Assembly: GCF_022096995.1 (NCBI RefSeq)
Contig: NZ_JACXGQ010000004.1
Location: 186,001 to 250,000 of the forward strand
Direction of reading: 5' to 3'
DNA length: 64,000 nt
From: Yoonia sp. I 8.24
GTDB lineage: Bacteria > Pseudomonadota > Alphaproteobacteria > Rhodobacterales > Rhodobacteraceae
Shown: in pieces, positions 20,937 to 36,046 of the stretch
How the letters are laid out: the number at the start of each line of letters is the position of its first letter
Numbering within the stretch: position 1 is the stretch's first letter
Program-made: the position numbers and the translations under genes
Notes under the pieces: generated by a model
Database searches by the model: none
The model's input: only the letters and a program-made list of their open reading frames with translations
Told to the model about the DNA's origin: nothing

Positions 20937-21770
20937 TTAAATTCCGTTCACGTTGAACACGCAGCCATCAGTGATCAATTCGGGTGGCGTATTGCAAAGC
21001 CCCTTCGCAACCTGCCAAGCCGCCAATACTTTTGGTACATAGGCCCGTGTTTCCGCGAACGGCGGCACGCCTGCGTGACGCATGACATTGCCTTCGCCCG
21101 CATTATACCCTGCAAGCGCCAAAACCGGATCATTTCCGAATTCATTGAGCAACCAACCAAGGTAGGCAACGCCGCCCTTAATGTTTTGGGCCCCATCTGT
21201 ACTGTCAGTCACGCCAAAGCGCGCGGCAGTTGCAGGCATCAATTGCATCAAACCTGTTGCGCCCGCACTGCTTACTGCATCAGTGCGCCCCGCGCTTTCC
21301 ACCGAAATCACGGCCAGTACCAATGCCGGTGACACATCCGTGCCAACAGTTTCGGTCAAAATCGCCAGACCATGTGCATTGGCAATATCTTGGAGACTTT
21401 GCAGACGCGGTGCGGAAACCCTTTCACCTGCTGGTGGGTTATTGATTTGCTTAAGCGCGCTTTCGAGCCGCGCCGGAGAAGAATCGTTAATCCCGAAAGA
21501 TACGTTGTTCCAAAACCAGTCAGTTCCCGCAGATTGCGGCACGGCAATCGCCGCAGATGCTTCTTCCACTTCAGGCTCATCTGAATAGACAGGACCAAGC
21601 CGCGGCGCATTCGGATCAATCTGCACGTTGATCCGCCCCGTAGAGCCTGCAGTCGGTACCGAAACCATCCGGAATGTAAAATCCGGCTGTAGTCGCTCTA
21701 CCTCTGCGCTGGCGTTAGAACTGCTGACCGATAGGGCCAAAGCCACTAAAAAAGGAATCTTACGATTCAT
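20937..21770 (-). CDS. Lytic transglycosylase (SLT domain) with signal peptide
   Basis: A 277-residue exported protein. A signal peptide (about 1-22, ending SNASA) precedes a low-complexity linker. The SLT fold occupies roughly residues 140-255, with the catalytic Glu in VISVESAGRTDAVS (E158), then GATGLMQLMPATAARFGV and ALAGYNAGEGNV, the diagnostic motifs. It would cleave peptidoglycan glycan strands to make 1,6-anhydro products in the periplasm. It is divergent from the Flp pilin gene and may open the wall for pilus assembly (inference from position only). Confidence 0.9.
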   Translation of the reverse strand: MNRKIPFLVALALSVSSSNASAEVERLQPDFTFRMVSVPTAGSTGRINVQIDPNAPRLGPVYSDEPEVEEASAAIAVPQSAGTDWFWNNVSFGINDSSPARLESALKQINNPPAGERVSAPRLQSLQDIANAHGLAILTETVGTDVSPALVLAVISVESAGRTDAVSSAGATGLMQLMPATAARFGVTDSTDGAQNIKGGVAYLGWLLNEFGNDPVLALAGYNAGEGNVMRHAGVPPFAETRAYVPKVLAAWQVAKGLCNTPPELITDGCVFNVNGI

Positions 21771-22119: not shown

Positions 22120-22299
22120 ATGCTTAACTTTATCAAAAACTTCCGCAACGACGAAGACGGCGCTGTAACAGTTGACTTCGTAGTTCTGACTGCTGCGATC
22201 GTTGTTCTTGGTCTGGCTGTTGGTGGCGCTGTGTCACGTGGCGCAGAAGGTCTTGCCAACGAAATCGAAGACTCACTTGACAACATGGACGCTGAATAA
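22120..22299 (+). CDS. Flp/Fap-type pilin, first copy
   Basis: A 59-residue prepilin: short basic leader with MLNFIKNFRNDEDG, cleavage expected after G14, then AVTVDFVVLTAAIVVLGLAV as the hydrophobic pilin helix and an acidic tail (EIEDSLDNMDAE). Position +5 of the mature protein is Asp and +6 Phe, where classical Flp pilins have Glu-Tyr. GAGGAGGG with 6-base spacing implies strong translation, fitting a major pilin. The protein would be processed by CpaA (32334) and polymerised by the Tad machinery downstream. A terminator with a T7 run follows. Confidence 0.93.
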   Translation: MLNFIKNFRNDEDGAVTVDFVVLTAAIVVLGLAVGGAVSRGAEGLANEIEDSLDNMDAE

Positions 22300-22359
22300 G
22301 CGCTTCTTGGCTAGTTGAGTATTGCGCTAGCGCTACTCAGCACATGTCTAAAAGTTTGA

Positions 22360-22393
22360 GGGCGCGGCACATTTTGTGGCGCGCCCTTTTTTT
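22360..22393 (+). terminator. Intrinsic terminator between the two pilin genes
   Basis: GGGCGCG-G-CACA pairs with TGTG-G-CGCGCCC (7 plus 4 pairs around one mismatch, 3-base loop), followed by seven T residues at 22387-22393. It is a canonical rho-independent terminator, 60 bases after the flp1 stop. Confidence 0.9.
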
Positions 22394-22430
22394 AAAACTA
22401 TTGCGAACGCTGACACAGATAGGACACAGG

Positions 22431-22610
22431 ATGAAGCAGATTTTTAAACGTCTCGCCGCCGAAGAGGACGGGGCAGTTACCGTAGATTTCGTGGTCCTTA
22501 CCGCCGCCATTACTGTGCTCGGTTTAGTCGTGGTTACCGCGTTTTCTCCCGGCGCGACCGGCCTTGCAAACGAAATAGAAGATGCTCTTGATAATATGGA
22601 TGCCGAATAG
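22431..22610 (+). CDS. Flp/Fap-type pilin, second copy
   Basis: A second 59-residue prepilin, same length as the first and nearly identical in the core (DGAVTVDFVVLTAAI) and tail (LDNMDAE). The leader MKQIFKRLAAEEDG differs and is more basic. I start it at the ATG 22431, preceded by AGGACACAGG. An in-frame ATG at 22344 would read through the terminator hairpin and give an implausible leader. Mature +5 is again Asp. It lies between two hairpins, so it depends on read-through from flp1 or its own promoter in 22394-22420. Confidence 0.92.
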   Translation: MKQIFKRLAAEEDGAVTVDFVVLTAAITVLGLVVVTAFSPGATGLANEIEDALDNMDAE

Positions 22611-22894: not shown

Positions 22895-23728
22895 ATGCGT
22901 GGAGTTTTTGGACTGGTTTTATTGGTCGGCATGGGCCTAGCGGGCTTTGCCGTATATATGGTGAACCAACAAATCGAACAAACGGCAAGTCAACTCGCGC
23001 GTGCCGAAGCGCAGCGCGATGGTGCCGTTCAGACAGTTGACGTTTACACGGTGAACAAGGCGTTTTCATACGGCGATGTCCTAACGGCCGACGATGTCGT
23101 ACTAATAAAATACGCCCGCGATTCGCTGCCAGAAGGTATCTTGCGGGAAGAAGAAGCCCTGTTCCCTCCAGAATATGCCGCGAAATCACGCGTGGTAATC
23201 CTGCCGATCATTCCGAACGAGCCTTTGACGCAGAGTCGCCTCGCTGCTCCTGGAGCGACGCGTGGCCTTACTGCACTCCTTGATCCAGGCATGCGCGCAT
23301 TTCCCATTCAAGGTCGGGTAACCGGTAGTTTTGGCACTTTGCGCCCGGACGATCGCATCGACTTGTATTGGAGCGGCCAACTGCAGTCTGGGCGCCGCGT
23401 AACAAATCTTTTGAAATCGGGGTTGGAGATTATCGCAGCGCCTGACGAGGAGCGCTCAAACGGGATTGATCAAGTCATCGTCCAAATTACCCCACAAGAA
23501 GTCGCCGAGCTAACGCAAGCACAGTCCAGCGGTACGCTCACGATCTCGCTTGTTGGTTCTGGAGATTCGGTTTCGATCACCGAAAGCATTTCTGCGGACA
23601 ACTTATCGGTGACCGGTGAGATCATCGAAGAAGAAGAGGAAGAAGAGGTCGTCGAAGAGGATGCGAAATGCTACGGCTACGAACGGCGTGGCACAGAGCG
23701 TGTCGAAGTCGAGATCCCTTGCAATTAG
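22895..23728 (+). CDS. cpaB: Flp pilus assembly protein CpaB
   Basis: A 277-residue periplasmic protein anchored by one N-terminal helix (about 5-22). A SAF domain (VYTVNKAFSYGDVLTADDVVLIKY, about 50-75) is followed by the RcpC/CpaB core (RVTGSFGTLRPDDRIDLYWSG). It is thought to support or gate the outer-membrane secretin. Near residues 238-256 there is a run of glutamates (EEEEEEVVEE), then a short basic/acidic tail with two cysteines (KCYGYERR and EIPCN) that could form a disulfide. A perfect terminator (23762-23791) follows, separating it from cpaC. Confidence 0.92.
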   Translation: MRGVFGLVLLVGMGLAGFAVYMVNQQIEQTASQLARAEAQRDGAVQTVDVYTVNKAFSYGDVLTADDVVLIKYARDSLPEGILREEEALFPPEYAAKSRVVILPIIPNEPLTQSRLAAPGATRGLTALLDPGMRAFPIQGRVTGSFGTLRPDDRIDLYWSGQLQSGRRVTNLLKSGLEIIAAPDEERSNGIDQVIVQITPQEVAELTQAQSSGTLTISLVGSGDSVSITESISADNLSVTGEIIEEEEEEEVVEEDAKCYGYERRGTERVEVEIPCN

Positions 23729-23761
23729 TCTGCAAGCCCTAAACCGCACCATTAATTCACT

Positions 23762-23791
23762 AAAAACGCCCGGAGAGCCCCGGGCGTTTTT
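23762..23791 (+). terminator. Intrinsic terminator after cpaB
   Basis: AAAAACGCCCGG and CCGGGCGTTTTT form a perfect 12-pair stem around a 6-base loop, with T5 at the end of the stem. It can act in both directions. Confidence 0.92.
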
Positions 23792-23942
23792 GCATTCCGA
23801 GACATAGTGTTGCGCGATGTCCACATTTGCTTCGTCTTCCAACCTATTGATTATTGCAATAAATGCGCGACTGACGCATGGTCACTACATCATGGGCATT
23901 AAGACCCTAGCAACGAGGCGTGATCGGAGAGGCAGGTCACTT

Positions 23943-25319
23943 ATGAAGTATGACAGATTTATCAAAGCCGCACTTACAGGCTTAACGTTGTCGCTTACCG
24001 CGACGGCACCAACAATGGCACCGGCTGAAACGTTGCGCGTCTTGCGCGGCGCGGCATCCAGTGCACTCAGCGTCCCAATGAACCGGGCCATCGTGGTTGA
24101 GAGCGACGTTCCTTATTCGGACGTTTCAATCGCCAACCCTGGCATCGCAGATATTTCTTCGCTTTCAGAACGCACATTGTACGTTTTGGGCAAAGAGCCG
24201 GGCCGCACCACCCTAACCCTATTGGGCGCTGATGGGCGTCTGATTACCAACGTTGAGATCCATGTCTCACCTGATATGGGCGAGTTCAAAGAACGCTTGG
24301 CCCAGATCCTTCCAGGTGAGAACATCGAAGTACGCACGGCCAATGATGGTATCGTACTTTCTGGACAGGTCAGCTCAATCGCGCGCCTTGAACGTGCCCT
24401 TCAACTCGCGAACCGCTACGCACCAGATCGGGTGTCAAACCTGATGGTCGTCGGTGGCACGCAGCAAGTTATGTTGCAGGTACGGTTCTCAGAAATGCAG
24501 CGTTCTGTAAGCAAATCATTTGGCACCAACTTCTCCGTACTCGGAACATCGAATGGCCTAAGCGTCGACGGTGGGACTACTACCGCCGCAGGAGCCGGGT
24601 CTAACGGTGCGGTTACCTTTGGTTTCGGCGCTGGTGCAATGGATGTGAGTCTCACGCTTGAGGCGCTGGAATCGCGCGGCCTTGTACGGACTTTAGCCGA
24701 ACCAAACCTTACTGCGCTGAGCGGTCAGGAGGCATCGTTCTTAGCCGGTGGTGAATATCCGGTACCAATCGCTCAAGACGAAGATACAATAACGGTAGAG
24801 TTTAAGCCTTTTGGTGTTGAACTCAACTTCATCCCGACTGTCGTCGACGATGATATCATCAACCTTGAACTGGAAGCTGCGGTATCTGCGATCGACACGA
24901 CCAACTCGTTTACGTCGGGTGAGTTCACAATTAATGCGTTTTCACGCCGTGAAACCAGCACAACCGTGGAAATGCGCGACGGTGAAAGCTTTGCAATTGC
25001 TGGACTGTTGCAGGACGACTTTAATGATCTGACCGAGTCGGTGCCATGGATCGGCGATGTGCCAGTCTTGGGCGCTCTGTTCCGGAGTGCGGCCTATGAG
25101 CGCGAACAAACTGAGCTTGTGATCATTGTGACGCCGCATTTGGTCTCGCCAACACGCGGCGCTGCTTTGTCGCTTCCAACCGATCGTGTGCAGCTGCCAA
25201 GCGAAGCCGATCTGTTCTTGCTCGGCAAAACATCCGCCGGCACTCAAATCCCCGGCGCAGCCGGTGAAGTAGCCCGTCAGGACTTTAGTGGTTCTTACGG
25301 CTACGTCATGGACGAATGA
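23943..25319 (+). CDS. cpaC: Tad pilus outer-membrane secretin CpaC/RcpA
   Basis: 458 residues from the ATG at 23943; a longer in-frame start at 23817 would precede the true signal peptide (KYDRFIKAALTGLTLSLTAT, cut near residue 29). An N-terminal BON/secretin N region (about 40-160) is followed by the secretin domain with VGGTQQVMLQVRFSEMQRSVSK and the C-terminal signature FLAGGEYPVPI...VPWIGDVPVLGALFRS. It forms the pore through which the Flp pilus exits. An OmpA-like lipoprotein gene follows with a 16-base gap. Confidence 0.94.
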   Translation: MKYDRFIKAALTGLTLSLTATAPTMAPAETLRVLRGAASSALSVPMNRAIVVESDVPYSDVSIANPGIADISSLSERTLYVLGKEPGRTTLTLLGADGRLITNVEIHVSPDMGEFKERLAQILPGENIEVRTANDGIVLSGQVSSIARLERALQLANRYAPDRVSNLMVVGGTQQVMLQVRFSEMQRSVSKSFGTNFSVLGTSNGLSVDGGTTTAAGAGSNGAVTFGFGAGAMDVSLTLEALESRGLVRTLAEPNLTALSGQEASFLAGGEYPVPIAQDEDTITVEFKPFGVELNFIPTVVDDDIINLELEAAVSAIDTTNSFTSGEFTINAFSRRETSTTVEMRDGESFAIAGLLQDDFNDLTESVPWIGDVPVLGALFRSAAYEREQTELVIIVTPHLVSPTRGAALSLPTDRVQLPSEADLFLLGKTSAGTQIPGAAGEVARQDFSGSYGYVMDE

Positions 25320-25335
25320 ATAGGAGCACAGGTCA

Positions 25336-25986
25336 ATGAAGAAACTTATGACAACAGCAACGGCCGCTGCGCTCCTTGCGGGCTGCTCGGCAACGACGGA
25401 TGACTTCCCACAGCTTCAATACGAAGCAGGGGCTGTCGTTGACGGCGGTGGTTTTGGCAACGCGACGATGAACAACGTGATGGTTCAATCAGCGCAAGAA
25501 GACTACCGCGTCAATCTAGCGCGTCGTTTCGCGTCCGAGATTGATTCAACAGTCACATTCGAGTTCAACTCGACTGTACTTGATGCAGATGCCCAGCGTA
25601 TTCTTTCACGCCAAGCAGATTGGATCCGTCAGTTCCCAGAAGTCCGCTTCCGGGTCTACGGGCACACCGACCTTGTCGGTAGCCAATCATACAACCGCAG
25701 TCTCGGCCTTCGTCGTGCACAAGCAGTTGTTGCCTATCTGACGTCGCAAGGTATTGGACGGGATCGCCTCGAAGCGGTTGCTTCATTTGGCGAAACTCAG
25801 CCTTTGATCGCGACAAATGATCGTGAGCGTCGCAACCGCCGGACAGTTACAGAGGTATCAGGATTCGTTGAAACCGATCCTATGGTGCTCGACGGAATAT
25901 ACGCGCAAGTTATCTACCGTGGGTATATTGAACGCGCTGTATCACCGCCCGCATTGGGTGGCACAGAAATCGCCGCTGGCGAATAA
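25336..25986 (+). CDS. OmpA-domain lipoprotein of the Tad locus
   Basis: A 216-residue lipoprotein: signal with lipobox LLAGC (Cys17 becomes the lipidated N-terminus), a variable stretch, then an OmpA-like peptidoglycan-binding domain (about 70-165) with VTFEFNSTVLDADAQRIL and RVYGHTDLVGSQSYNRSLGLRRAQAV. In Rhodobacterales such a protein often follows the secretin and may take the place of CpaD by tying the secretin to the cell wall (inference from position). The C-terminal ~45 residues extend beyond the OmpA fold. A terminator follows at 26002. Confidence 0.9.
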   Translation: MKKLMTTATAAALLAGCSATTDDFPQLQYEAGAVVDGGGFGNATMNNVMVQSAQEDYRVNLARRFASEIDSTVTFEFNSTVLDADAQRILSRQADWIRQFPEVRFRVYGHTDLVGSQSYNRSLGLRRAQAVVAYLTSQGIGRDRLEAVASFGETQPLIATNDRERRNRRTVTEVSGFVETDPMVLDGIYAQVIYRGYIERAVSPPALGGTEIAAGE

Positions 25987-26001
25987 CAGCCTACCAATTA
26001 T

Positions 26002-26040
26002 GTCCACGCCGAACACAGTTTGGCGTGGACGTTCTCTTTT
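26002..26040 (+). terminator. Intrinsic terminator after the OmpA lipoprotein
   Basis: GTCCACGCC (26002-26010) pairs with GGCGTGGAC (26022-26030), followed by GTTCTCTTTTTAG. It closes the cpaC-OmpA unit, so cpaE needs its own promoter within 26041-26220. Confidence 0.85.
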
Positions 26041-26230
26041 TAGTTACATTTTTTGCAACACTGACCTGAAATATGGGTCTTTGGTCCAAAATTCGACACG
26101 ATTGCCCCCAATATTATCCCAACCACAGTGCGCCACGGCAACGCGGCCGCGCCTTATATTCTATCGCTCTAGCGCTTACACTTGCTGGTGGACTAAGATG
26201 GAATCACAACATCGATGAGGACGACAAAGA

Positions 26231-27472
26231 ATGACTGATACTACGGCCGTACAGCACGATGCGCCCCCGATTGTAGCGTGCACGATCAGCCGCGATGTAC
26301 AGATTTTTGATCTGTTAATCGAAGACATGGAAGCCGCACTTGGCGACGCTTGGGGCGACCTGAGCTTTGAAGACGCTGTCGCATTTTTGGGGCAAAAAGA
26401 GGCGCGTAGCCTCCAGTTTGTCACAATCGCGATGGATGTGAATGACGAAGACAACTTGCCATTGGTGTCCGAAGTGATCGCTGTTGCCAAAGCCGCCAAA
26501 ATCAAAGTTATTCTTATTGCAGAAGATGTCAGCCCAACCGCGTTGCACCAATTGCTCCGCGAAGGCGGTGATGAATTTGTGCCCTACCCGCTCCCCGAAA
26601 ACGAACTTGCGCGCGCGATCGAACGTGTCCTGACCGCCGAAGAACCTGAAGAACCCGCAGAAGGCACCAAAGGCTTTAACGCGACGGGGAATCATTCTGG
26701 CGTTGTTGTGCCAATCCACGGCATTGCTGGCGGTACCGGTGCAACGATGTTTGCCGTCAATCTTGCTTGGGAACTTGCCAACATAGACAAGGAAGACCCA
26801 CCCAAGGTTTGCTTGCTTGATCTCGATTTTCAGTTCGGATCGGTGTCGACCTATCTTGATCTTCCCCGCCGCGAGGCCGTGTTGGAAATGCTAACCGACA
26901 CAGAATCGATGGATTCCGAAGCTTTTTTACAATCAATGCTGACCTACGAAGACAAGCTGCACGTGCTGACGTCGCCAACAGATATGATTCCGTTGGACAT
27001 GATTACACCCGAAGATATCGCGCGAGTGATCGAAGTCGCGCGGGTCAATTTCGACTATGTCATCATCGACATGCCAACGACGATGATCGAATGGTCGCAA
27101 ACTGTCCTTGAAACCGCACATATCTATCTCGCGATGATCGAACTGGATATGCGGTCCGCGCAGAACACATTGCGCCTGAAACGCGCGTTGCAGTCAGAAG
27201 ACCTGCCGTTCGACAAAATTCGGTTCATTCTCAACCGCGCACCTGGGTTTACCGATATGAACGGCAAAAGCCGGGTCAAACGCCTTGCGGATAGTCTCGG
27301 AATTTCAATTGACGTGCTGATGCCTGACGGCGGCAAGCCCGTCATGCAAAGCTCTGACCACGGATCGCCAATGGCTGTTGGTATCCCTAAGAACCCATTG
27401 CGCAAAGAAATTACTAAATTTGCGAAGTCACTGCATGAAGTCAACCAAGCTGAAGCTGACGCGAGAGCTTAA
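26231..27472 (+). CDS. cpaE: Tad pilus localisation ATPase-like protein CpaE/TadZ
   Basis: A 413-residue protein: N-terminal receiver-like domain (about 15-135), then a MinD/ParA-type domain (about 155-400) with LLDLDFQFGSVSTYLDL and YVIIDMPTTMIEW. TadZ localises the pilus machine to a cell site. The nucleotide loop reads GIAGGTGATMFAVNLA: the signature lysine of deviant Walker A (KGG) is Ala and the GKT lysine is Ala, so ATP hydrolysis is doubtful. It starts a new transcription segment after the terminator at 26002 and is followed 11 bases later by cpaF. Confidence 0.92.
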   Translation: MTDTTAVQHDAPPIVACTISRDVQIFDLLIEDMEAALGDAWGDLSFEDAVAFLGQKEARSLQFVTIAMDVNDEDNLPLVSEVIAVAKAAKIKVILIAEDVSPTALHQLLREGGDEFVPYPLPENELARAIERVLTAEEPEEPAEGTKGFNATGNHSGVVVPIHGIAGGTGATMFAVNLAWELANIDKEDPPKVCLLDLDFQFGSVSTYLDLPRREAVLEMLTDTESMDSEAFLQSMLTYEDKLHVLTSPTDMIPLDMITPEDIARVIEVARVNFDYVIIDMPTTMIEWSQTVLETAHIYLAMIELDMRSAQNTLRLKRALQSEDLPFDKIRFILNRAPGFTDMNGKSRVKRLADSLGISIDVLMPDGGKPVMQSSDHGSPMAVGIPKNPLRKEITKFAKSLHEVNQAEADARA

Positions 27473-27483
27473 GAGGCAACAAT

Positions 27484-28938
27484 ATGTTTTCGAAATATAA
27501 AAAACCCAACGCACCCAAAGATACCCCTGCCGCAGCGGGCCGTCCAAAGGTGAATGTCGCCCCAGCGGCTGCCCCAAAAGTGGATGAGGCACGTAAATCG
27601 CTGATGAAGGCGATGCCCGAAAAGCGGGCCGCTGAAGCGGGCCCTGTCGATAAAGACAAGCGTCGCAAGGAACGTCTGGGCGAGATCAAGCTCGAATTGC
27701 ACAAGTCGCTGCTCGACAATTTGAACCTCGCCGCGTTGGAATCCGCGTCAGAGGCCGAGCTGCGTAACGAGATCAACTCAATCGCGAATGAATCGCTTGA
27801 GGAAATGGGCATCGTCTTGAACCGTGACGAACGGCAAGCGCTGAGTCAGGATCTGTTCTTTGAGGTTACTGGACTTGGCCCACTTGAGACATTGCTTAAA
27901 GACGAATCTGTAAACGATATTTTGGTCAACGGCCCGCAGCAGATTTTTGTGGAACGTGACGGTAAGCTTCAGCTCACTGATATTACGTTTAAAGATGAAA
28001 AGCACCTGCTGCGGATCATCGATAAAATCGTTTCCGCCGTTGGTCGCCGGGTTGATGAAAGTAACCCTTACGTCGATGCGCGTCTTGCTGATGGTTCTCG
28101 TTTTAACGCCATGGTGCCACCTATTGCGGTCGACGGGTCACTGGTTTCCATTCGTAAGTTTAAGAAAGATAAGCTTGGGATCGAAGAACTGGTCAAATTT
28201 GGCGCATTTACCGAAGAAATGGCCGCCTATCTTCAGGCCGCCGTGTCAACCCGCCTAAATGTCATCGTATCTGGCGGTACGGGTTCTGGTAAAACGACCA
28301 CATTGAACGCGCTTTCGGGCTTTATTGATGACGCCGAACGTATCCTGACAATCGAGGATACGGCCGAACTTCAACTGCAACAAACGCACGTTGGTCGGAT
28401 GGAAAGCCGTCCACCAAACGTCGAAGGCAAGGGCGGCGTATCCCAGCGCGACTGTCTGAAAAACGCCCTGCGGATGCGTCCTGATCGCATCATCGTGGGG
28501 GAGACGCGTGGCGAAGAAGTTATCGACATGCTGCAAGCCATGAACACTGGCCACGATGGGTCAATGACCACAATTCACGCCAACTCTGCACGCGATGGCG
28601 TGTCGCGTTTGGAAAACATGATCGCGATGGCCGGGATCGAAATGCCGCTGAAAGCGATGCGGAGCCAGATTTCATCGGCGGTAAACCTCATCGTGCAGGC
28701 ATCGCGTTTGCAAGATGGTTCCCGCCGCATGACGTCCATCACAGAGATCACCGGGATGGAAGGCGACGTTATTTCGATGCAAGAAATCTTTCGATATCAA
28801 CGTGTCGGTCTAACACCCGACAACAAGATTATCGGGCACTTTACAGCGACAGGCGTGCGCAGCCACTATTCTGACCGCTTCAAGCTGTGGGGATACGATT
28901 TGCCACCTGCTATCTTTGAACCAATGGTTGCGGAGTAA
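27484..28938 (+). CDS. cpaF: Tad pilus assembly/retraction ATPase CpaF/TadA
   Basis: A 484-residue secretion ATPase of the VirB11/GspE superfamily, powering pilus extension and probably retraction. A variable Pro/Ala/Lys-rich N-terminus is followed by the N-terminal domain and core: Walker [17 protein letters not shown] (about 259-275), Asp box [10 protein letters not shown], Walker B region [14 protein letters not shown] and His box [17 protein letters not shown]. All catalytic features are present, in contrast to the neighbouring TadZ. tadB follows after 6 bases. Confidence 0.97.
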
Positions 28939-28944
28939 CGACGC

Positions 28945-29910
28945 ATGATTTCGGCTGCCCCAGTAATTTATATCCTGATCTTTGTCGCCGTTGTCGCGAT
29001 GGTTCAGGGTGTCTACCTTGTGATTTTTGGCAAATCGATCAGCATGGACGGGAAGGTTAACCGCCGTCTTGAGATGCTTGATAAAGGCGGGAACCGCGAA
29101 CAGGTTCTTGATCAGTTGCGCAAAGAGATGTCGCAGCATATGCGCTCGCAAAGTATTCCGATCTATTCCATCTTGGCGAACAAAGCGCAGATGGCGAACA
29201 TCGTGTTTACCCCGCCACAAATCATCATGCTGATGGGCGTCATCAGCTTTGTCGCCTTTATGATGCTGACAGTCCTGACCCAGCTTGGCGTGCCTGTGCG
29301 TGCTGCTGTCGCAGTTTTGATGGGCGTTGGCGGCGTATACGTTTGGATCAGCCGCAAGGCTAACAAACGGATGTCAATGATTGCTGAGCAGCTTCCCGAA
29401 GCCGTTGAACTTATGGTCCGTTCGCTTCGCGTGGGTCACCCGTTCTCAAACTCGCTACAGATTGTTTCGACCGAAATCGCTGACCCGCTCGGCACTGAAT
29501 TTGGGATGATCTCGGATGAGGCTGCATATGGGCGTGATATGGGGGAAACACTTAAAGCTATGGCGGAACGCTTGGATAACCAAGATATGCGCTTCTTGGC
29601 CGTTGCCGTCAGTATTCAACAGACATCCGGTGGTAACTTGGCGGAAATTCTGGATGGTCTTGCCAAAGTTATCCGCGCACGGTTCCGCCTGTTCCGCCGC
29701 GTTAGTGCGATTACTGCAGAAGCAAAATGGTCTGGCAACCTTCTGTCCGTTTTCCCAGTTTTGGCACTTATCCTCATCACATTGGTCAAACCCGACTATT
29801 TCGATGAAGTCATGGAAAGCTCTGCCTTCATTCCGGCCTGTTTCGTTATCAGCGCCTTTCTTGTGTTGAACGTGGTCGTCATGCGTTCGCTTGTAAACAT
29901 TAAGGTCTAA
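28945..29910 (+). CDS. tadB: Tad pilus inner-membrane platform protein TadB
   Basis: A 321-residue T2SF-type platform protein. There are membrane helices near the N-terminus (about 5-25), a pair at 92-135 and two at 265-315. The cytoplasmic T2SF domain contains LPEAVELMVRSLRVGHPFSNSLQ and TSGGNLAEILDGLAKVIRARF. Together with TadC it anchors CpaF to the inner membrane. It lies between cpaF and tadC in a tight operon (6 and 10 base gaps). Confidence 0.94.
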   Translation: MISAAPVIYILIFVAVVAMVQGVYLVIFGKSISMDGKVNRRLEMLDKGGNREQVLDQLRKEMSQHMRSQSIPIYSILANKAQMANIVFTPPQIIMLMGVISFVAFMMLTVLTQLGVPVRAAVAVLMGVGGVYVWISRKANKRMSMIAEQLPEAVELMVRSLRVGHPFSNSLQIVSTEIADPLGTEFGMISDEAAYGRDMGETLKAMAERLDNQDMRFLAVAVSIQQTSGGNLAEILDGLAKVIRARFRLFRRVSAITAEAKWSGNLLSVFPVLALILITLVKPDYFDEVMESSAFIPACFVISAFLVLNVVVMRSLVNIKV

Positions 29911-29920
29911 GGGGCCCATC

Positions 29921-30883
29921 ATGGAAAACATTCAAGCACAGCTTACCGAACTTCTTGGACCAAACGCACTGATCATCCTTGTCGGTCTTATTGGCTTCTT
30001 TTTGGTGTTGGTGACCCTGCCAGTTCTGCTCAAGAAAGACGACGATCCGCTTAACCGCCTAAAGGCAAGTGGACACAGCACAGATAAGAAAACCGCTAAG
30101 GGCGAAAAACTGCGTACGGCCTCTAGCAAAGATAAGCTCGAGAAATATTCGAGCTTCCTCGAGCCGCAAAACGAAGATGAATATTCAGCCGTCAAGCTAA
30201 AGCTATTGCAAGCGGGCTACCGTGGCAAAACAGCTGTGCGCACATATAACTTCTTACAACTCACACTGGGTATCTTTGGGCTGGTGCTTGGTGGCATGTA
30301 TGCTGTTTTCAAAATGTCGCAAGGCGATGTTTCATCGCAAGATCTTGCGCTTATGATCTTGGGGCCTGCTGGCGCCGGCTACTTTCTACCCAAGTATTGG
30401 GTCACACGCCGACAAGCCGTACGCCAAGAAGCCATCACAAACGGCTTTCCCGACGCGCTCGACTTGATGCTGGTCTGTGTCGAAGCTGGGCAATCACTTG
30501 ATCAATCGATCATGCGCGTATCCAAAGAGCTGCGTTCTGGCTTTCCCGACATTTCAGATGAGTTTGAAATGGTTGGTCAAGAAACTAAAGCGGGTAAAGA
30601 CAAGACAACCGTGCTGAAAGATATGGCCGAACGCTGCGGTGTGCAGGACATCACCAGCTTTGTTACAGTGCTGGTCCAATCGCAGCAATTTGGTACATCG
30701 ATTTCGGACGCGTTGCGTGTCTATTCACTTGAAATGCGTGACAAGCGCGTCATGCGCGCCGAAGAAAAAGCCAACAAACTGCCAACAAAAATGACATTAG
30801 CCACCATGATGTTGACTGTGCCGCCACTTATGGCAATTTTGATTGGTCCATCGATCTACGCGATCGCCCAAAACTTGGGCTGA
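29921..30883 (+). CDS. tadC: Tad pilus inner-membrane platform protein TadC
   Basis: A 320-residue partner of TadB with the same T2SF domain (GFPDALDLMLVCVEAGQSLDQSIMRV; VLVQSQQFGTSISDALRVYS) and helices at about 15-35, 105-150 and 285-315. A Lys-rich cytoplasmic loop (about residues 50-80) follows the first helix. It is part of the cpaE-cpaF-tadB-tadC-TPR-TPR-cpaA run; the next start codon is 7 bases after its stop. Confidence 0.94.
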   Translation: MENIQAQLTELLGPNALIILVGLIGFFLVLVTLPVLLKKDDDPLNRLKASGHSTDKKTAKGEKLRTASSKDKLEKYSSFLEPQNEDEYSAVKLKLLQAGYRGKTAVRTYNFLQLTLGIFGLVLGGMYAVFKMSQGDVSSQDLALMILGPAGAGYFLPKYWVTRRQAVRQEAITNGFPDALDLMLVCVEAGQSLDQSIMRVSKELRSGFPDISDEFEMVGQETKAGKDKTTVLKDMAERCGVQDITSFVTVLVQSQQFGTSISDALRVYSLEMRDKRVMRAEEKANKLPTKMTLATMMLTVPPLMAILIGPSIYAIAQNLG

Positions 30884-30890
30884 TCAAAAA

Positions 30891-31451
30891 ATGAAACCTC
30901 GGCTCGCCCTTCTGGGGATCGCTTTCACCACGTTGATCGCCTGTGCCAACGACGGGTTGGATAATTCGGGCGACGGGGTATTTGCCCCCGGTGTGTCTGG
31001 TGAAGGCAGTGTTGACGGGTTGATTGTGGGTCATCGGCTGATGGCCGCGGGCGAATACGAACTGGCGCTCAAAGCTTATAGGCGAGCGGCCATTCAGCAC
31101 GGGCTCAATGTCGACACACTCTCGGCAATTGGGTCTGCAAACCTGCATATTGGGCGCCTTGGACAGGCTGAACGTTGGTTGCGTGATGCTGTTGAATTAG
31201 ATGCTAGCTTTCCACCCGCGTGGAACAATCTTGGCGTCGTTTTGATGGAACGTGGCAAAGTTGCCGAAGCAAGTGAGGTTTTCCGCCGCGCATATGCCGC
31301 AGACAACGGAAATTCGGATGAAATCCGCGACAATTTACGGTTAGCGCTCGCAATGTTGGAAAACAACGACAATACTGTGGTACAAGATTACCAGAACTTC
31401 AATTTGATCCGACGCGGTGCAGGTGATTTCGTGCTAATGTCAGATCTCTGA
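30891..31451 (+). CDS. tadD: TPR lipoprotein TadD
   Basis: A 186-residue lipoprotein: signal peptide with LIAC lipobox (Cys18), then about three tetratricopeptide repeats between residues 45 and 150 (GEYELALKAYRRAAIQHGL; GRLGQAERWLRDAVELDASFPPAWNNLGVVLMERGKVAEA). TadD is needed for secretin stability or assembly in other Tad systems. I start it at the ATG 30891, since the in-frame ATG at 30843 lies inside tadC and precedes no export signal. A second TPR lipoprotein follows. Confidence 0.88.
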   Translation: MKPRLALLGIAFTTLIACANDGLDNSGDGVFAPGVSGEGSVDGLIVGHRLMAAGEYELALKAYRRAAIQHGLNVDTLSAIGSANLHIGRLGQAERWLRDAVELDASFPPAWNNLGVVLMERGKVAEASEVFRRAYAADNGNSDEIRDNLRLALAMLENNDNTVVQDYQNFNLIRRGAGDFVLMSDL

Positions 31452-31476
31452 GTATGAGCAGCAAAAGGACGCTAAA

Positions 31477-32331
31477 ATGCGCCACCCAATTATTCTTTCG
31501 CTTTGCCTAGCAACGCTTACCCTGTCGGCCTGTGCAAAATCGACAGAAGAGCAAATTCAAGAAGCCATCAACGACATCAACGCCAGCGATGCGCAAAACG
31601 TCAACGAGCTCATGATGACAATGGGCGACCCCAACGAAGCGGTCCAGCATTTCTCAGCCTCGCTTGCCGCCGACCCGGACAATATCGATCTTCAGCGTGG
31701 CCTTGCGACATCACTGATCCGTGCGACCCGTGTGACAGAAGGGATTGCAGCATGGAATACAGTTGTTGCACATCCTGAAGCCACGAGTGAAGACCGCGTA
31801 GAACTTGCAGGCGCGCATATCCGGGCAAGCGCCTGGGACGATGCTGCCGCCACGCTCAACACAGTGCCGCCAACCTTTGAAACGTTCAAACGCTACCGGT
31901 TTGAGGCCATGGTCGCCGATAGCCGCCAACAATGGGACAAGGCGGACAGTTTCTATCAAACTGCTGCGGGTCTCACGACGCGCCCGGCCTCGGTCTATAA
32001 CAACTGGGGGTATTCCAAGCTAACCCGCGGTGATTACCGTGGTGCTGAACGACTGTTCCTCGACGCTTTGCGCCATGACGCGACCCTGTTTACTGCCAAA
32101 AACAACCTCGTTCTTGCACGCGGCGCACAGCGCAACTATGCGCTGCCCGTCGTTGACATGAACCAAATCGAGCGCGCGCAGCTGCTTTACACCCTCGCGC
32201 TTGCTGCAATTAAACAAAATGACGTCTCGATCGGCAAATCGCTTTTGGCGGATGCGATCGAAACCCACCCGCGTCACTTTGAAGAAGCCGTGCGCGCATT
32301 GCAGGCGCTTGAAAACAACGCGACAAACTAG
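31477..32331 (+). CDS. Second TPR lipoprotein of the Tad locus
   Basis: A 284-residue lipoprotein with lipobox LSAC (Cys19), then tetratricopeptide-like repeats over about residues 50-260 (NEAVQHFSASLAADPDNIDLQRGLATSLI; VYNNWGYSKLTRGDYRGAERLFLDALRHDATLFTAKNNL). It has the same architecture as the preceding TadD but is about 100 residues longer, so an ancient duplication or a division of labour is likely. AAAGGA precedes the start. cpaA begins 2 bases after its stop. Confidence 0.87.
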   Translation: MRHPIILSLCLATLTLSACAKSTEEQIQEAINDINASDAQNVNELMMTMGDPNEAVQHFSASLAADPDNIDLQRGLATSLIRATRVTEGIAAWNTVVAHPEATSEDRVELAGAHIRASAWDDAAATLNTVPPTFETFKRYRFEAMVADSRQQWDKADSFYQTAAGLTTRPASVYNNWGYSKLTRGDYRGAERLFLDALRHDATLFTAKNNLVLARGAQRNYALPVVDMNQIERAQLLYTLALAAIKQNDVSIGKSLLADAIETHPRHFEEAVRALQALENNATN

Positions 32332-32333
32332 CT

Positions 32334-32822
32334 ATGGGACTGACGGCATACGCAGCATGCTGGTTCCTGCCGGCAGTTATCCCAATCGCAGTTTTCGTGG
32401 CGTGGAACGACATGCGAGTCATGAAGATCCCCAATCTTGCGGCAGGTGCGCTTTTGCTCAGCTTTGCCGTACTTGGGATCTTTGCACTGCCCTTTGTCAC
32501 CTACCTGTGGCACTGGACCCATTTTGCCGTGGTGCTTGCGGTAGGAATCCTGTTTTGGATGTCTGGGGTCATTGGCGGTGGCGATGTGAAGTTTATGGCG
32601 GCGGCCGCCCCGATGGTTGCTGTTGCCGACCTGCGCATGTTTTTGTTGATCTACGCGTCCTGCCTTTTGGCCGCCTTGGTCACGCACCGCTTGGCAAAAC
32701 ATAGCCCGCTGCGTAAAATTGCGCCTGATTGGCTTAGCTGGGACAACGACCGTTTTCCAAAGGGGCTCGCGCTAAGCGGGACGATTTTGTTTTATCTACT
32801 AGTTGTTGCGATTACGCGTTAA
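32334..32822 (+). CDS. cpaA: Tad prepilin peptidase CpaA/TadV
   Basis: A 162-residue A24-type aspartic prepilin peptidase, all membrane. The two catalytic Asp regions are visible: WNDMRVMKIPN near residue 25 and GGGDVKFMAAAAP near residue 82 (GxGD motif). It lacks the N-methylation domain, as expected for Tad peptidases. It should cleave the two Flp pilins encoded 10 kb upstream. It is the last gene of the cpaE-led operon. Confidence 0.92.
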   Translation: MGLTAYAACWFLPAVIPIAVFVAWNDMRVMKIPNLAAGALLLSFAVLGIFALPFVTYLWHWTHFAVVLAVGILFWMSGVIGGGDVKFMAAAAPMVAVADLRMFLLIYASCLLAALVTHRLAKHSPLRKIAPDWLSWDNDRFPKGLALSGTILFYLLVVAITR

Positions 32823-32840
32823 ACAAAGACAACATAGGCC

Positions 32841-32867
32841 GTGCCCCTTACAGGCACTTGTTTGTTC
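32841..32867 (+). terminator. Weak hairpin after cpaA
   Basis: GTGCC (32841-32845) pairs with GGCAC (32853-32857), followed by TTGTTTGTT. A short stem, so a weak candidate terminator for the cpaE-cpaA operon. Confidence 0.35.
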
Positions 32868-32955
32868 ACTATTTCGCCACAATAGGCTGTAATCTTAGTT
32901 AAAACCGCCGCAGATTCTGCGGAATTCGAATCTTTTTACGATAGGCAAGAATGTC

Positions 32956-34266
32956 ATGAACGTGCAATCCTCTGGTGTAATGGCCCCCCCGGCGCCGCGT
33001 AGTCTTGAAGGCATGCTCCTGCCTATGTCGATGATGCGCGATATTTTAATCAAAACAATGTTCCGGATGAACCTTGATCAGGTCTCGCTGATCAGCCGTG
33101 CCATTTGTCTGCCCATTCCCGTCACACAAGAATTGGTCGATATGGCCCGCAGTCAGCTCCTGCTTGAGGCGCGCGGAACGCTGAACGCCAACAGCGGCAA
33201 TGAGATGGGTTATCAATTGACCGACGCCGGACGCGCGCGCGCGCTGGATGCGCTTAGCCAGTCTGAATATTACGGTGCGATGCCCGTCCCGCTTGATATC
33301 TACCGCGAACAGATTGAACGCCAGTCGATCCGGAATATCCAGATCACACGTGAACAGCTATCGACCGCGATGGGGCACCTTGTGTTGCCGCCAGACCTGT
33401 TATCAAATCTTGGCCCCGCGATTAGTGCGGGCCGCTCGATCTTGATGTATGGTCCACCGGGCAATGGGAAGTCATCCATCTCGAACGGTATTCGCGATGC
33501 GTTAGGCGATAAAATCTATGTGCCTCGTGCAATTGAATATTCGGGTCAGGTGATCACCGTTTACGATCCGATTGTGCACTCCGCCGCCGAAGATGACGTC
33601 GATGATCCCAATAGCCTGCGCCGGACCTCTGGTCGGTTTGACACGCGCTATGTGCGCTGTGAACGCCCAACCGTGATTACGGGTGGTGAATTGTCACTGT
33701 CGATGCTTGACCTTGTTTATAACCCCACCGCGCGGACTTATCAGGCGCCCTTGCAGTTGAAATCAACTGGCGGCATCTTTATCGTGGACGACCTTGGCCG
33801 TCAGGCTGAACCACCGCAGACGCTGGTCAACCGTTGGATTGTTCCGCTCGAAGAAAACAAAGATATTCTTGCGCTGCAATCGGGTGAGAAATTCGAGGTT
33901 CCCTTTGACACGCTTGTCATTTTCTCAACCAACTTCCACCCGAACGCGATCTTCGATAAGGCGGCTTTGCGCCGGATTTTCTATAAGATTAAGATCGACG
34001 GCCCACACCAAGAAGACTTCCTAAAGATTTTCGCGATGGTGGCCCGCAAACGTAAAATGCCACTTGATGAGGATACGCTCGTTCACCTGTTGAACACGCG
34101 TTACCCCGAGATCGACAATGTCTATGCCAACTACCAGCCGATTTTCTTGATCGATCAGATGATCTCAATCTGTGAATTCGAAGGCATCCCCTATCAAATG
34201 ACACCGGATCTGATTGATCGGGCATGGGCCAACATGTTCGTGAAAGAAGAAGAAATCATTCACTAG
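32956..34266 (+). CDS. AAA+ ATPase next to the Tad locus, role unknown
   Basis: A 436-residue cytoplasmic ATPase. An N-terminal ~150 residues look like a helical or winged-helix domain (LIKTMFRMNLDQVSLISRAI; ELVDMARSQLLLEA). The AAA+ core follows: Walker A MYGPPGNGKSSISNGI (about 165-180), Walker B GGIFIVDDLGRQ (about 271-283), then FSTNFHPNAIFDKAALRRIFYKI, a sensor/arginine-finger region. Both nucleotide motifs look intact. It follows cpaA after 133 bases and ends at a strong terminator, so it belongs at the end of the pilus region. I know no assigned function; the position suggests a link with pilus control or chaperoning. Confidence 0.85.
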   Translation: MNVQSSGVMAPPAPRSLEGMLLPMSMMRDILIKTMFRMNLDQVSLISRAICLPIPVTQELVDMARSQLLLEARGTLNANSGNEMGYQLTDAGRARALDALSQSEYYGAMPVPLDIYREQIERQSIRNIQITREQLSTAMGHLVLPPDLLSNLGPAISAGRSILMYGPPGNGKSSISNGIRDALGDKIYVPRAIEYSGQVITVYDPIVHSAAEDDVDDPNSLRRTSGRFDTRYVRCERPTVITGGELSLSMLDLVYNPTARTYQAPLQLKSTGGIFIVDDLGRQAEPPQTLVNRWIVPLEENKDILALQSGEKFEVPFDTLVIFSTNFHPNAIFDKAALRRIFYKIKIDGPHQEDFLKIFAMVARKRKMPLDEDTLVHLLNTRYPEIDNVYANYQPIFLIDQMISICEFEGIPYQMTPDLIDRAWANMFVKEEEIIH

Positions 34267-34291
34267 TGACATTTTAAATTCCCAAGCAACT

Positions 34292-34327
34292 GACTTCCCT
34301 TTACCCAAAGGGAAGTCTTTTTCTTTT
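34292..34327 (+). terminator. Intrinsic terminator after the AAA+ ATPase
   Basis: GACTTCCCTTT (34292-34302) pairs perfectly with AAAGGGAAGTC (34307-34317) over a 4-base loop, followed by TTTTTCTTTT. It marks the end of the Tad region. Confidence 0.93.
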
Positions 34328-34339
34328 GGGGGGTACGAT

Positions 34340-35125
34340 ATGACGGAAATTATTGGTGTGGCTGGATGCGGCCGCATGGGCAGGCCAATGTTGGCCAATC
34401 TACAATCGGCTGGATTTGATGCGCGTGGCTATGATCTGCGTGCCTCTGCCGGGGTTGGCACAGATGTTGATACCTTTTGCGACGGGCTGACAACGCTGAT
34501 CACCGTCGTCCGCGACGCGGCAGAGACCGATGCGTTGCTCTTCGATGATCAAAATGTCGTCGCCAACGCGCGCGCCTTGCAGACAATTGTGATCAGCTCG
34601 ACCCTATCGCCCAATTACGTCAAATCCCTGCGCGCACGTATCCCTGCGCATATCACCATCATTGATGCGCCTATGTCTGGCGCGCAAGTGCGTGCCCGCG
34701 CAGGCACGTTGACCTTTATGGTCGGTGGCGATCCAGCACCCATTATGCCGCTCTTGCAGGCAATGGGCGACGCGATCCACCCGATGGGCGACTTCGGTGC
34801 TGGGATGACCGGCAAGGTGCTGAATAATATGCTGGCGGCGTCGCATACGGCAATGACCCGGCTGGTGCTTGATTGGGGTGATGCACAGGGCGTGGGTGAG
34901 GCAAAATTACTGGCCTTGATCGCAAGCGCCTCAGGCCAAAACTGGTTGGCCTCAGGCTTTGACGATATTGAATTCGCACGCGACGGGTTCGGCGACGACA
35001 ATAGTATTGGGATTTTGGCCAAAGATGTCGGCGCAGCACTCGATATCGCGCCAGATGGTAACACCGCTCTGCCCGAGGCCGTGCAAACGGCAATCAGGCA
35101 GCTTAAGCCGCGCGCCAAATCGTAG
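34340..35125 (+). CDS. NAD(P)-dependent beta-hydroxyacid dehydrogenase family protein
   Basis: A 261-residue oxidoreductase of the 3-hydroxyisobutyrate/6-phosphogluconate dehydrogenase superfamily. The N-terminal Rossmann motif is IGVAGCGRMGRPMLANL. The substrate-binding motif DAPMSGAQVRARAGTLTFMVGG and catalytic-lysine region GAGMTGKVLNNML follow, so it looks catalytically complete. It is somewhat shorter than typical (about 290). Substrate cannot be named. The stop codon TAG at 35123-35125 is supplied by the dispersed palindrome that begins at 35122. Confidence 0.87.
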   Translation: MTEIIGVAGCGRMGRPMLANLQSAGFDARGYDLRASAGVGTDVDTFCDGLTTLITVVRDAAETDALLFDDQNVVANARALQTIVISSTLSPNYVKSLRARIPAHITIIDAPMSGAQVRARAGTLTFMVGGDPAPIMPLLQAMGDAIHPMGDFGAGMTGKVLNNMLAASHTAMTRLVLDWGDAQGVGEAKLLALIASASGQNWLASGFDDIEFARDGFGDDNSIGILAKDVGAALDIAPDGNTALPEAVQTAIRQLKPRAKS

Positions 35126-35145
35126 GGTGGATCTTGATCCACCCC
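35122..35145. repeat. Dispersed palindrome, copy 4 (forms a stop codon)
   Basis: GTAGGGTGGATCTTGATCCA followed by CCCC: 8-pair stem GGGTGGAT/ATCCACCC with a 4-base loop. Its TAG is the stop codon of the preceding dehydrogenase, and it ends 8 bases before the folD stop on the other strand, so it could serve as a bidirectional hairpin. Confidence 0.8.
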
Positions 35146-35152
35146 ACCTAAA

Positions 35153-36046
35153 CTAGGCAGTCAGCCCTTCGGGCTCTTTCAACCCGTTGGCGCGGCAACA
35201 GGCGGTGACTGTATTCGCCAGAAGGCAAGCAATCGTCATCGGTCCAACACCGCCCGGCACCGGGGTTATCGCCCCCGCCACAGCGGCGCAACTGTCGTAA
35301 TCTGCGTCACCCACCAGCCGGGTGCCACCCTCTGGCTTATCAATGCGGTTGATGCCCACATCAATCACCGTCGCACCTGGTTTGATCCAATCGCCGGGGA
35401 TCATCTGCGGGCGGCCCACGGCTGCGACCACGATATCAGCTTGGCGCACCACGGCGGGCAAGTCTTTCGTACGGCTATGCGCGATGGTCACGGTGCAGCT
35501 ATCGCCGAGCAGCAATTGCGCCATCGGTTTGCCAACAATATTCGAACGACCAACAACGACAGCATTCATGCCAGAAAGCGATCCATGATGGTCACGCAAC
35601 ATCATCAGACAACCAAGCGGGGTGCAGGGCACCATGCTTTTTTGTCCCGTTCCCAGAAGTCCAACATTTGAGATATGAAACCCATCCACATCCTTGGCCG
35701 GGTCGATGCTATTGATGACCAAGTCACTGTCCAAATGTCCGGGAAGTGGTAGTTGCACCAGAATGCCGTGGACATCCTGATCCGCATTCAACTTAGCAAT
35801 CAAAGCAAGCAAATCCTCTTCGGAGGTTTGCGCATCCAACTTGTGTTCAAAGCTGTTCATGCCAACTTCGACGGTCATTTTGCCCTTGGAACGCACGTAA
35901 ACTTGGCTGGCCGGGTCTTCGCCCAACAGTACCACGGCAAGTCCCGGCGTAATCCCGTGCACTTCTTTAAGGCGCGTGACATGTTCGGCGACTTTCGTGC
36001 GCACTGTCGCGGCAAAGGCTTTTCCGTCAATTACTGTTGCTTTCAT
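35153..36046 (-). CDS. folD: Bifunctional methylenetetrahydrofolate dehydrogenase/cyclohydrolase
   Basis: NADP-dependent oxidation of 5,10-methylene-THF to methenyl-THF and hydrolysis to 10-formyl-THF. It is 297 residues. Signatures: [15 protein letters not shown] with the catalytic Lys near residue 55, [38 protein letters not shown] (cofactor loop) and [15 protein letters not shown] near the C-terminus. It lies downstream of the MOSC gene with a 182-base gap, so it probably has its own promoter. Confidence 0.96.

Follow-up and report, generated by a model that had tools for sequence, protein, structure and literature searches.

Downstream of the tad cluster of Yoonia sp. I 8.24 lies a gene for an AAA+ ATPase that is separate from the usual Tad ATPases and that probably assists a subset of the Tad (Flp) systems as a remodelling factor or chaperone, by a mechanism that we infer from its domains and its neighbours. 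If this role is true, a step of control or chaperoning that is missing from the usual models would exist in many Tad machines. The gene was found in a stretch of 64,000 nucleotides of one contig, referred to as the window in the following.

The ATPase gene at the end of the tad cluster

The tad cluster of the window, the ATPase gene, and the sites flanking this gene are all on the forward strand.

22120-22299, +: first Flp-like pilin ORF, recognised by eye from the sequence
22344-22610, +: second Flp-like pilin ORF, also by eye, the true start being probably internal
22895-32331, +: tad cluster with cpaB, cpaC, an OmpA-like gene, cpaE, cpaF, tadB, tadC, and two TPR/TadD-like genes, from ORFs and profile searches
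26231-27472, +: cpaE, with a profile match to a ParA/MinD-type domain
27484-28938, +: cpaF, with the Pfam domain T2SSE (PF00437, 226.5 bits)
30843-31451, +: first TPR-like gene, named by eye
32334-32822, +: cpaA, prepilin peptidase (PF01478), directly upstream of the ATPase
32861-32884, +: conserved upstream element of 24 nt, by its conservation a likely promoter or regulator site of the ATPase gene itself
32956-34266, +: ATPase gene (AAA+ with winged helix, 436 residues, ATG start), from the ORF call and the family alignment
34292-34317, +: terminator-like hairpin after the ATPase, an 11-pair stem with T-tract, from a pattern match only

The ATPase is encoded by a single gene in its own genome, as judged by a genome search, and the nearest named record, Loktanella sp. 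D2R18, has an ATPase of 100% identity. According to the preliminary description the gene lies between cpaA and a terminator, which is correct, cpaA ending at 32822 and the 11-pair terminator-like stem following the ATPase. Its other neighbour is a dehydrogenase-like gene (by eye). At the opposite end of the cluster, a lytic-transglycosylase-like gene (by eye, 20937-21770, reverse strand) is located opposite the pilin genes, and a homologue adjoins the tad clusters of seven other loci (L205, L206, L207, L211, L213, L214, and L220).

The ATPase had also been said to close the Tad region. This is true by position but is to be taken as positional only, because in this genome the ATPase probably has its own promoter and its own terminator, as far as can be read from the DNA. 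The conserved upstream element together with the terminator-like site suggests a separate transcription unit. This element is a block some 90 nt ahead of the ATG that is conserved in an alignment of 13 sequences, i.e. the window plus 12 relatives, although it is weaker in two of them. It has one site in its own genome at up to 3 mismatches. With up to 4 substitutions allowed, its 20-nt core precedes the ATPase in 25 of 79 loci, a search of both strands of these loci (1.42 Mb) giving no other site, and was not found in the remaining 54. It also precedes, with 3 mismatches, the ATPase of L047, a locus whose stretch contains no tad genes. The 24-nt block fits the standard sigma-70 spacing poorly, and no Rfam family matched within 32000-35500. 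The idea of a regulon was considered as well, but the element has no second site in the window or in the genome and so gives no support for co-regulation of the ATPase with the tad genes.

Single promoter-like and terminator-like sites are weak evidence because their counts are below or about equal to those in shuffled sequences. Between 21500 and 35300 there are 6 sigma-70 promoter-like sites compared to 10.9 in the shuffles, i.e. fewer, and 21 terminator-like sites compared to 17.2 on average (sd 5.7), so that as a class the latter are no more frequent than by chance. Among the 20 other terminator-like sites one has a longer stem than the hairpin after the ATPase and one has an equal stem. 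A weak 5-pair site is present between cpaA and the ATPase (32841-32857).

Within the ATPase, the following domains and motifs were located.

33025-33261, +: winged-helix-like domain, residues 24-102, from AlphaFold and Foldseek
33268-33324, +: conserved linker, residues 105-123, with Y105, G107, P110, and Q123 invariant in 33 sequences
33451-33474, +: Walker A, residues 166-173 (YGPPGNGKS spans 165-173), from the family alignment
33775-33792, +: Walker B, residues 274-279 (FIVDD 275-279), followed by L-GRQ, from the family alignment
33931-33933, +: sensor-1-like Asn, residue 326, invariant in the family alignment, its role assigned by analogy
33970-33975, +: Arg pair, residues 339-340, invariant in the alignment, a likely arginine finger or sensor

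The earlier account of a 436-residue ATPase with intact Walker A and B motifs is borne out by the exact ORF and by the family alignment, in which the Walker residues G166, G169, G171, K172, D278, and D279 are unchanged in 33 of 33 members, with identities down to 29%. G281, R282, and Q283 after Walker B as well as N326, R339, and R340 are invariant in the same alignment. Because they are invariant across 33 members of such low identity, the motifs are not a product of chance. The core is, by its sequence, that of an AAA+ protein with intact catalytic motifs, for which ATP hydrolysis and assembly into rings are predicted. However, no Pfam or NCBIfam family reached its cut-off for the ATPase in profile searches; PF00004 did so in five of eight relatives scanned but not in the window protein itself. 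In a profile comparison with solved structures, Sec18/NSF, Cdc48/p97, and spastin were best, the coverage being mainly restricted to the P-loop region. The ATPase shares the P-loop and Walker B and, as judged by sequence, the sensor-like Asn and the arrangement of the Arg pair with the classical AAA proteins and the MoxR-like chaperones. Profiles of AAA_3/MoxR and AAA_lid gave no match to the window protein at E 0.1; bpMoxR appeared below threshold in three of the eight scanned relatives. In conservation the ATPase is close to CpaF and ahead of the other Tad proteins, with medians of 83% for the ATPase, 82% for CpaF, and 39-68% for the others (35-66 loci per gene), values that are biased upward because the loci were picked by similarity to the ATPase.

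The N-terminal 150 residues had been regarded as a domain that cannot be assigned. This does not hold, since about 80 of these residues (24-102) form, with moderate confidence and according to the predicted model, a winged-helix-like domain, which the conserved linker joins to the AAA core. The structure prediction that had been proposed for this part yielded a fold, helix-helix-helix-strand-strand-helix, with AlphaFold block means of 77-90 for residues 21-70 and 81-100, but only 61 in the wing block (residues 71-80). Of the 50 Foldseek matches listed, the majority are winged helices of the MarR/PadR type. The assignment is only moderate because the best of the listed matches has an E of 4e-3 and none of them an E at or below 0.001. 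Overall the AlphaFold models are poor (pLDDT 50 with a 50-row alignment, and 47 for the AAA part with 47 rows), the alignments being shallow and restricted to Rhodobacteraceae with distant rows left out, and their usable parts are limited to the winged helix and the helices at the C-terminus.

Co-occurrence with Tad genes and gene order

Presence of the ATPase was compared with that of CpaB and CpaF in Pseudomonadota, namely in 196 genomes of the own order, all of which belong to the own family, and in a class and a phylum sample that were counted outside the family. In the own order the ATPase is present in 180 and CpaB over cut-off in 183 of the 196 genomes. Both are found in 178 genomes, the ATPase only in 2, CpaB only in 5, and neither in 11, so that CpaB accompanies 178 of the 180 ATPase-positive but 5 of the 16 ATPase-negative genomes (Fisher 1e-12, uncorrected for kinship). 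The 16 negative genomes are not independent events because ten of them belong to one genus. Outside the family, CpaB is present in 13 of 15 genomes with and 94 of 270 without the ATPase in the class sample (Fisher 9e-5), and in 16 of 18 with and 78 of 266 without it in the phylum sample (Fisher 7e-7).

A survey of co-occurrence with cpaF had been proposed in the preliminary description, which had named a wide occurrence of homologues in tad-less genomes as the observation that would speak against a pilus role. Taking the samples together (180 genomes of the own order, 15 of the class, and 18 of the phylum), 210 of the 213 ATPase-bearing genomes have CpaB or CpaF; within the Pseudomonadota as sampled, homologues are therefore not widespread in genomes lacking tad. 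In G265 and G456 tad is shown by CpaF-like genes (46-51% identity), and in G172, which has the ATPase but no CpaB, the contig ends inside the tad cluster. The three genomes with neither CpaB over cut-off nor CpaF are G055, G493, and G665, the last being 86% complete. G055 has kept the ATPase while cpaB to tadC have been lost and CpaF is not found. At its locus (L203) unrelated genes stand in place of most of the tad core, whereas cpaA and the ATPase are intact, and a short-chain-dehydrogenase-like frame runs into a truncated TadD-like frame (by eye).

The converse does not apply. In the class sample outside the family, 94 of 107 genomes with CpaB have no ATPase, and among the other classes of the phylum sample the ATPase is found in 15 of 32 CpaB-positive genomes. 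G063 and G141 have complete-looking Rhodobacter-type tad clusters without the ATPase. Because it is absent from these two clusters and from many other Tad systems, the ATPase would tune or assist the machine but would not be indispensable. In G063 a large helicase-like ORF (by eye; L206, 12377-14782) follows cpaA at the place where the ATPase is expected. Three weaker ATPase matches were seen in G110, whose tad cluster was covered by a stretch ending at cpaA.

Among 80 Rhodobacteraceae loci chosen by similarity to the ATPase, 74 have cpaA ahead of the ATPase gene in the same orientation. The gap between cpaA and the ATPase is about 82-225 nt in 43 of these loci and 1.7-2.0 kb in 31. In the two of the 31 that were read (L045, 8222-10624, and L064, 8216-9832) the wider gap contains one large membrane-protein gene on the opposite strand, and a gene of this kind separates cpaA and the ATPase in the G055 locus, which is not part of the 80 (L203, 11729-13381). 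Of the remaining six loci, four begin no more than 1.5 kb from the end of a contig. In L097 a tad cluster is present close to the ATPase but inverted, so that L047 is the only one of the 80 loci with no tad genes within its stretch. In G011, too, the stretch with the ATPase is without tad genes, which are located on another contig.

Other lineages have different arrangements. In the other classes of the phylum, the order peptidase-ATPase-cpaB is found in 13 of 13 tad-linked loci (Pfam over cut-off in 10 of 10 scanned, the other three by eye), with Flp-like ORFs further upstream (by eye), and plasmids of Burkholderia pyrrocinia and Paraburkholderia terrae are annotated with the series flp-prepilin peptidase-ATP-binding protein-cpaB. 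The ATPase follows tadC in Rhizobium etli p42e, Sinorhizobium, and Ensifer, and is placed tail-to-tail with tadC on a Salipiger plasmid. Tad genes are adjacent in all nine plasmid loci opened, which were taken from 75 matching records and are not a random draw. Judged from these sequences, the adjacency of the ATPase and Tad genes is a feature that recurs in several different gene orders.

Proposed function and alternatives

The pairing with tad in varied orders, the adjacency of cpaA and ATPase in two far lineages, the constrained motifs, and the non-basic winged helix favour a remodelling or chaperone factor. The ATPase would assemble into a ring driven by ATP on the cytoplasmic side of the inner membrane. 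Its winged helix may grip a Tad protein, which could be the prepilin, CpaA/TadV, or the TadB/TadC platform, and the gripped protein would be remodelled or chaperoned by the ATPase. The outcome would be a control of the number of pili or of the machine being switched on. The preliminary description had proposed a control or chaperone factor for Flp pili, and this candidate gains from the co-occurrence with Tad and the recurrent adjacency; to call the protein a pilus component would still go further than these data.

Like the CpaF/TadA motor the ATPase is encoded at the tad locus, and it would act at the same machine. However, as had been noted before, it is unlike CpaF: it has no match to T2SSE, which the cpaF product contains, but an AAA+ core and a winged helix, and it is encoded by a separate gene beside a normal cpaF. 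Because of this separate T2SSE-type cpaF in the same cluster the ATPase is expected to be a helper and not the motor. With CpaE/TadZ it shares being a second, non-motor ATPase of Tad loci, but CpaE is encoded by a separate gene with a ParA/MinD-type domain, for which the ATPase has no match.

An alternative is a role in transcription. The winged helix would bind DNA and the AAA+ ring would switch tad or surface-attachment genes, for which the resemblance of the N-terminal fold to MarR/PadR-type winged helices and the separate control suggested by the upstream element can be put forward; regulators combining AAA+ and HTH domains do exist, for example FleQ. However, the net charge of the winged helix and of the putative recognition helix is neutral to slightly acidic (mean -0.5 each, 33 sequences), and the lack of a net positive charge favours contact to proteins over contact to DNA. 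Winged helices in AAA+ proteins often make protein contacts, and the upstream element with its one site in the own genome gives no sign of a regulon. We therefore regard a transcription regulator as unlikely. Much the same applies to a cellular ATPase independent of pili, whose place beside tad in Rhodobacteraceae would be due to inherited synteny. It is hard to see in this case why tad adjacency should recur with different orders in rhizobia, on the Salipiger plasmid, and in other classes, and why CpaB over cut-off is likewise missing from 11 of the 16 ATPase-negative genomes of the own order. On the other hand, such a general role would agree with the occurrence of the ATPase within the family (180 of 196 genomes), its persistence in G055 after the loss of tad, its location apart from tad in L047 and G011, and the location of relatives in other alphaproteobacteria mostly away from tad. 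Altogether this explanation is improbable.

The best, albeit weak, library matches of the ATPase are to the anti-phage ATPases IetA/IteA (NCBIfam IteA, E 5e-7; PADLOC IetA, E 2e-8), with a local similarity that is strongest at the P-loop for IetA and at residues 316-367 for IteA. An ATPase of this kind is nevertheless hardly to be expected here. The match to IteA has 29.3 bits, far below the NCBIfam cut-off of 510, and the protease partner that is encoded adjacent to the ATPase in the IetA/IteA system is missing, the gene neighbourhood consisting instead of cpaA and the dehydrogenase-like gene. In addition, there is no phage match, and none of 600 pattern-matched stretches of viral contigs encodes a relative. 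A phage or defence origin was accordingly rejected, and we return to the accessory remodelling or chaperone factor.

In the usual description, Tad pili have a single motor (CpaF/TadA) and a single ParA-like ATPase (CpaE/TadZ). For their Tad model, Denise and colleagues name the motor ATPase, tadB, tadC, tadD, tadV, tadZ, rcpB, rcpC, and the secretin, and no further AAA+ gene, in the available part of the paper (PMC6668835). Such a gene is also not mentioned in the available parts of a paper on Tad in Rhodobacterales (PMC8383342) and of those on the tad genes of Vibrio vulnificus, Aliivibrio, and Aeromonas (PMC11287873, PMC6420764, PMC11322086); in the 13-gene operon of Aliivibrio, tadV is directly followed by rcpC, as far as given in the available text (PMC6420764). 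A functional study of such a Tad-linked ATPase was not found in the literature, judged by titles. There is presumably a SEED/RAST role for such a gene, "Predicted ATPase with chaperone activity, associated with Flp pilus assembly", although, among the papers listed by literature searches, none contained both of its phrases or "ATPase with chaperone". With such a role, the link between the ATPase and Flp pili may already be annotated, though unstudied as far as found.

Relatives away from tad clusters and MshEN-like motifs

Relatives of about 40% identity are encoded at 17 loci in 15 other alphaproteobacterial genomes, where stretches of 5.9-19.9 kb around the ATPase contain no tad genes. The same is true for the stretches from one further genus (f171 g337, four genomes). 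In wider stretches around two of the 17 loci (L141 and L146 of G360 and G456, which belong to one genus) tad is located about 9 kb off; the other 15 have none within 5.9-19.9 kb. By genome, CpaB or CpaF is found in 15 of 15 of these alphaproteobacteria but in only two of the four f171 genomes.

The proteins encoded away from tad differ from that of the window in their N-termini. All but two of 23 are extended at the N-terminus by a segment in which a 5-residue spacer separates two motifs of 24 residues. This resembles the c-di-GMP signature of MshEN, which according to the available part of its description consists of two 24-residue motifs with a 5-residue spacer (PMC5013675). Scored with a relaxed version of the published motif (22 points), 21 of the 23 proteins reach at least 18 and are each above their own 200 shuffles, the exceptions being the partly degenerate L130 and one copy of the L187 tandem pair. 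In the tad-linked branch, 28 of 28 scored proteins have 15 points or fewer, including L164 with its tad genes on another contig. The window protein, which was outside the scoring run, has no N-terminal extension in the family alignment. The leading Arg of the first motif is absent from many of the MshEN-like extensions; this residue contacts guanine in MshE, as stated in the available part of the same source (PMC5013675). No Pfam MshEN match was obtained in the eight relatives scanned, and both observations speak against binding of c-di-GMP. Most relatives away from tad resemble the c-di-GMP-binding ATPases MshE/PilB in the motif pair, while the window protein lacks the extension and has an AAA+ core and not the fold of the secretion ATPases.

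In a tree of 55 proteins two changes between the linked and unlinked classes are required when L164 is assigned to the former class and L141 and L146 to the latter. Tad-linked proteins from alphaproteobacteria, namely from Rhodobacteraceae, rhizobia, and Salipiger, fall into one supported group (96/85), which stands apart from the tad-linked proteins of other classes. The deep order of the tree is unsure because of several long branches.

It is conceivable, but can be put forward only as a tentative and rather doubtful extension, that the window protein belongs to a branch of an AAA+ regulator family so far not described, in which the complete architecture is MshEN-winged helix-AAA+. The stand-alone members would be c-di-GMP sensors controlling Tad pili in trans. 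The members that moved into tad loci would be without the sensor and would work directly on the machine encoded there. If this is true, the family represents an ATPase for control of pili by a second messenger that is distinct from the CpaF motor, and the MshEN-bearing relatives suggest a possible route for c-di-GMP to reach the pili. The combination of MshEN-like pair, winged helix, and AAA+ core was seen in L131-L146 and L185-L188, i.e. in alphaproteobacteria and one genus outside this class, and the ATPases of L186 and L187, from two genomes of one genus, are tandem duplicates.
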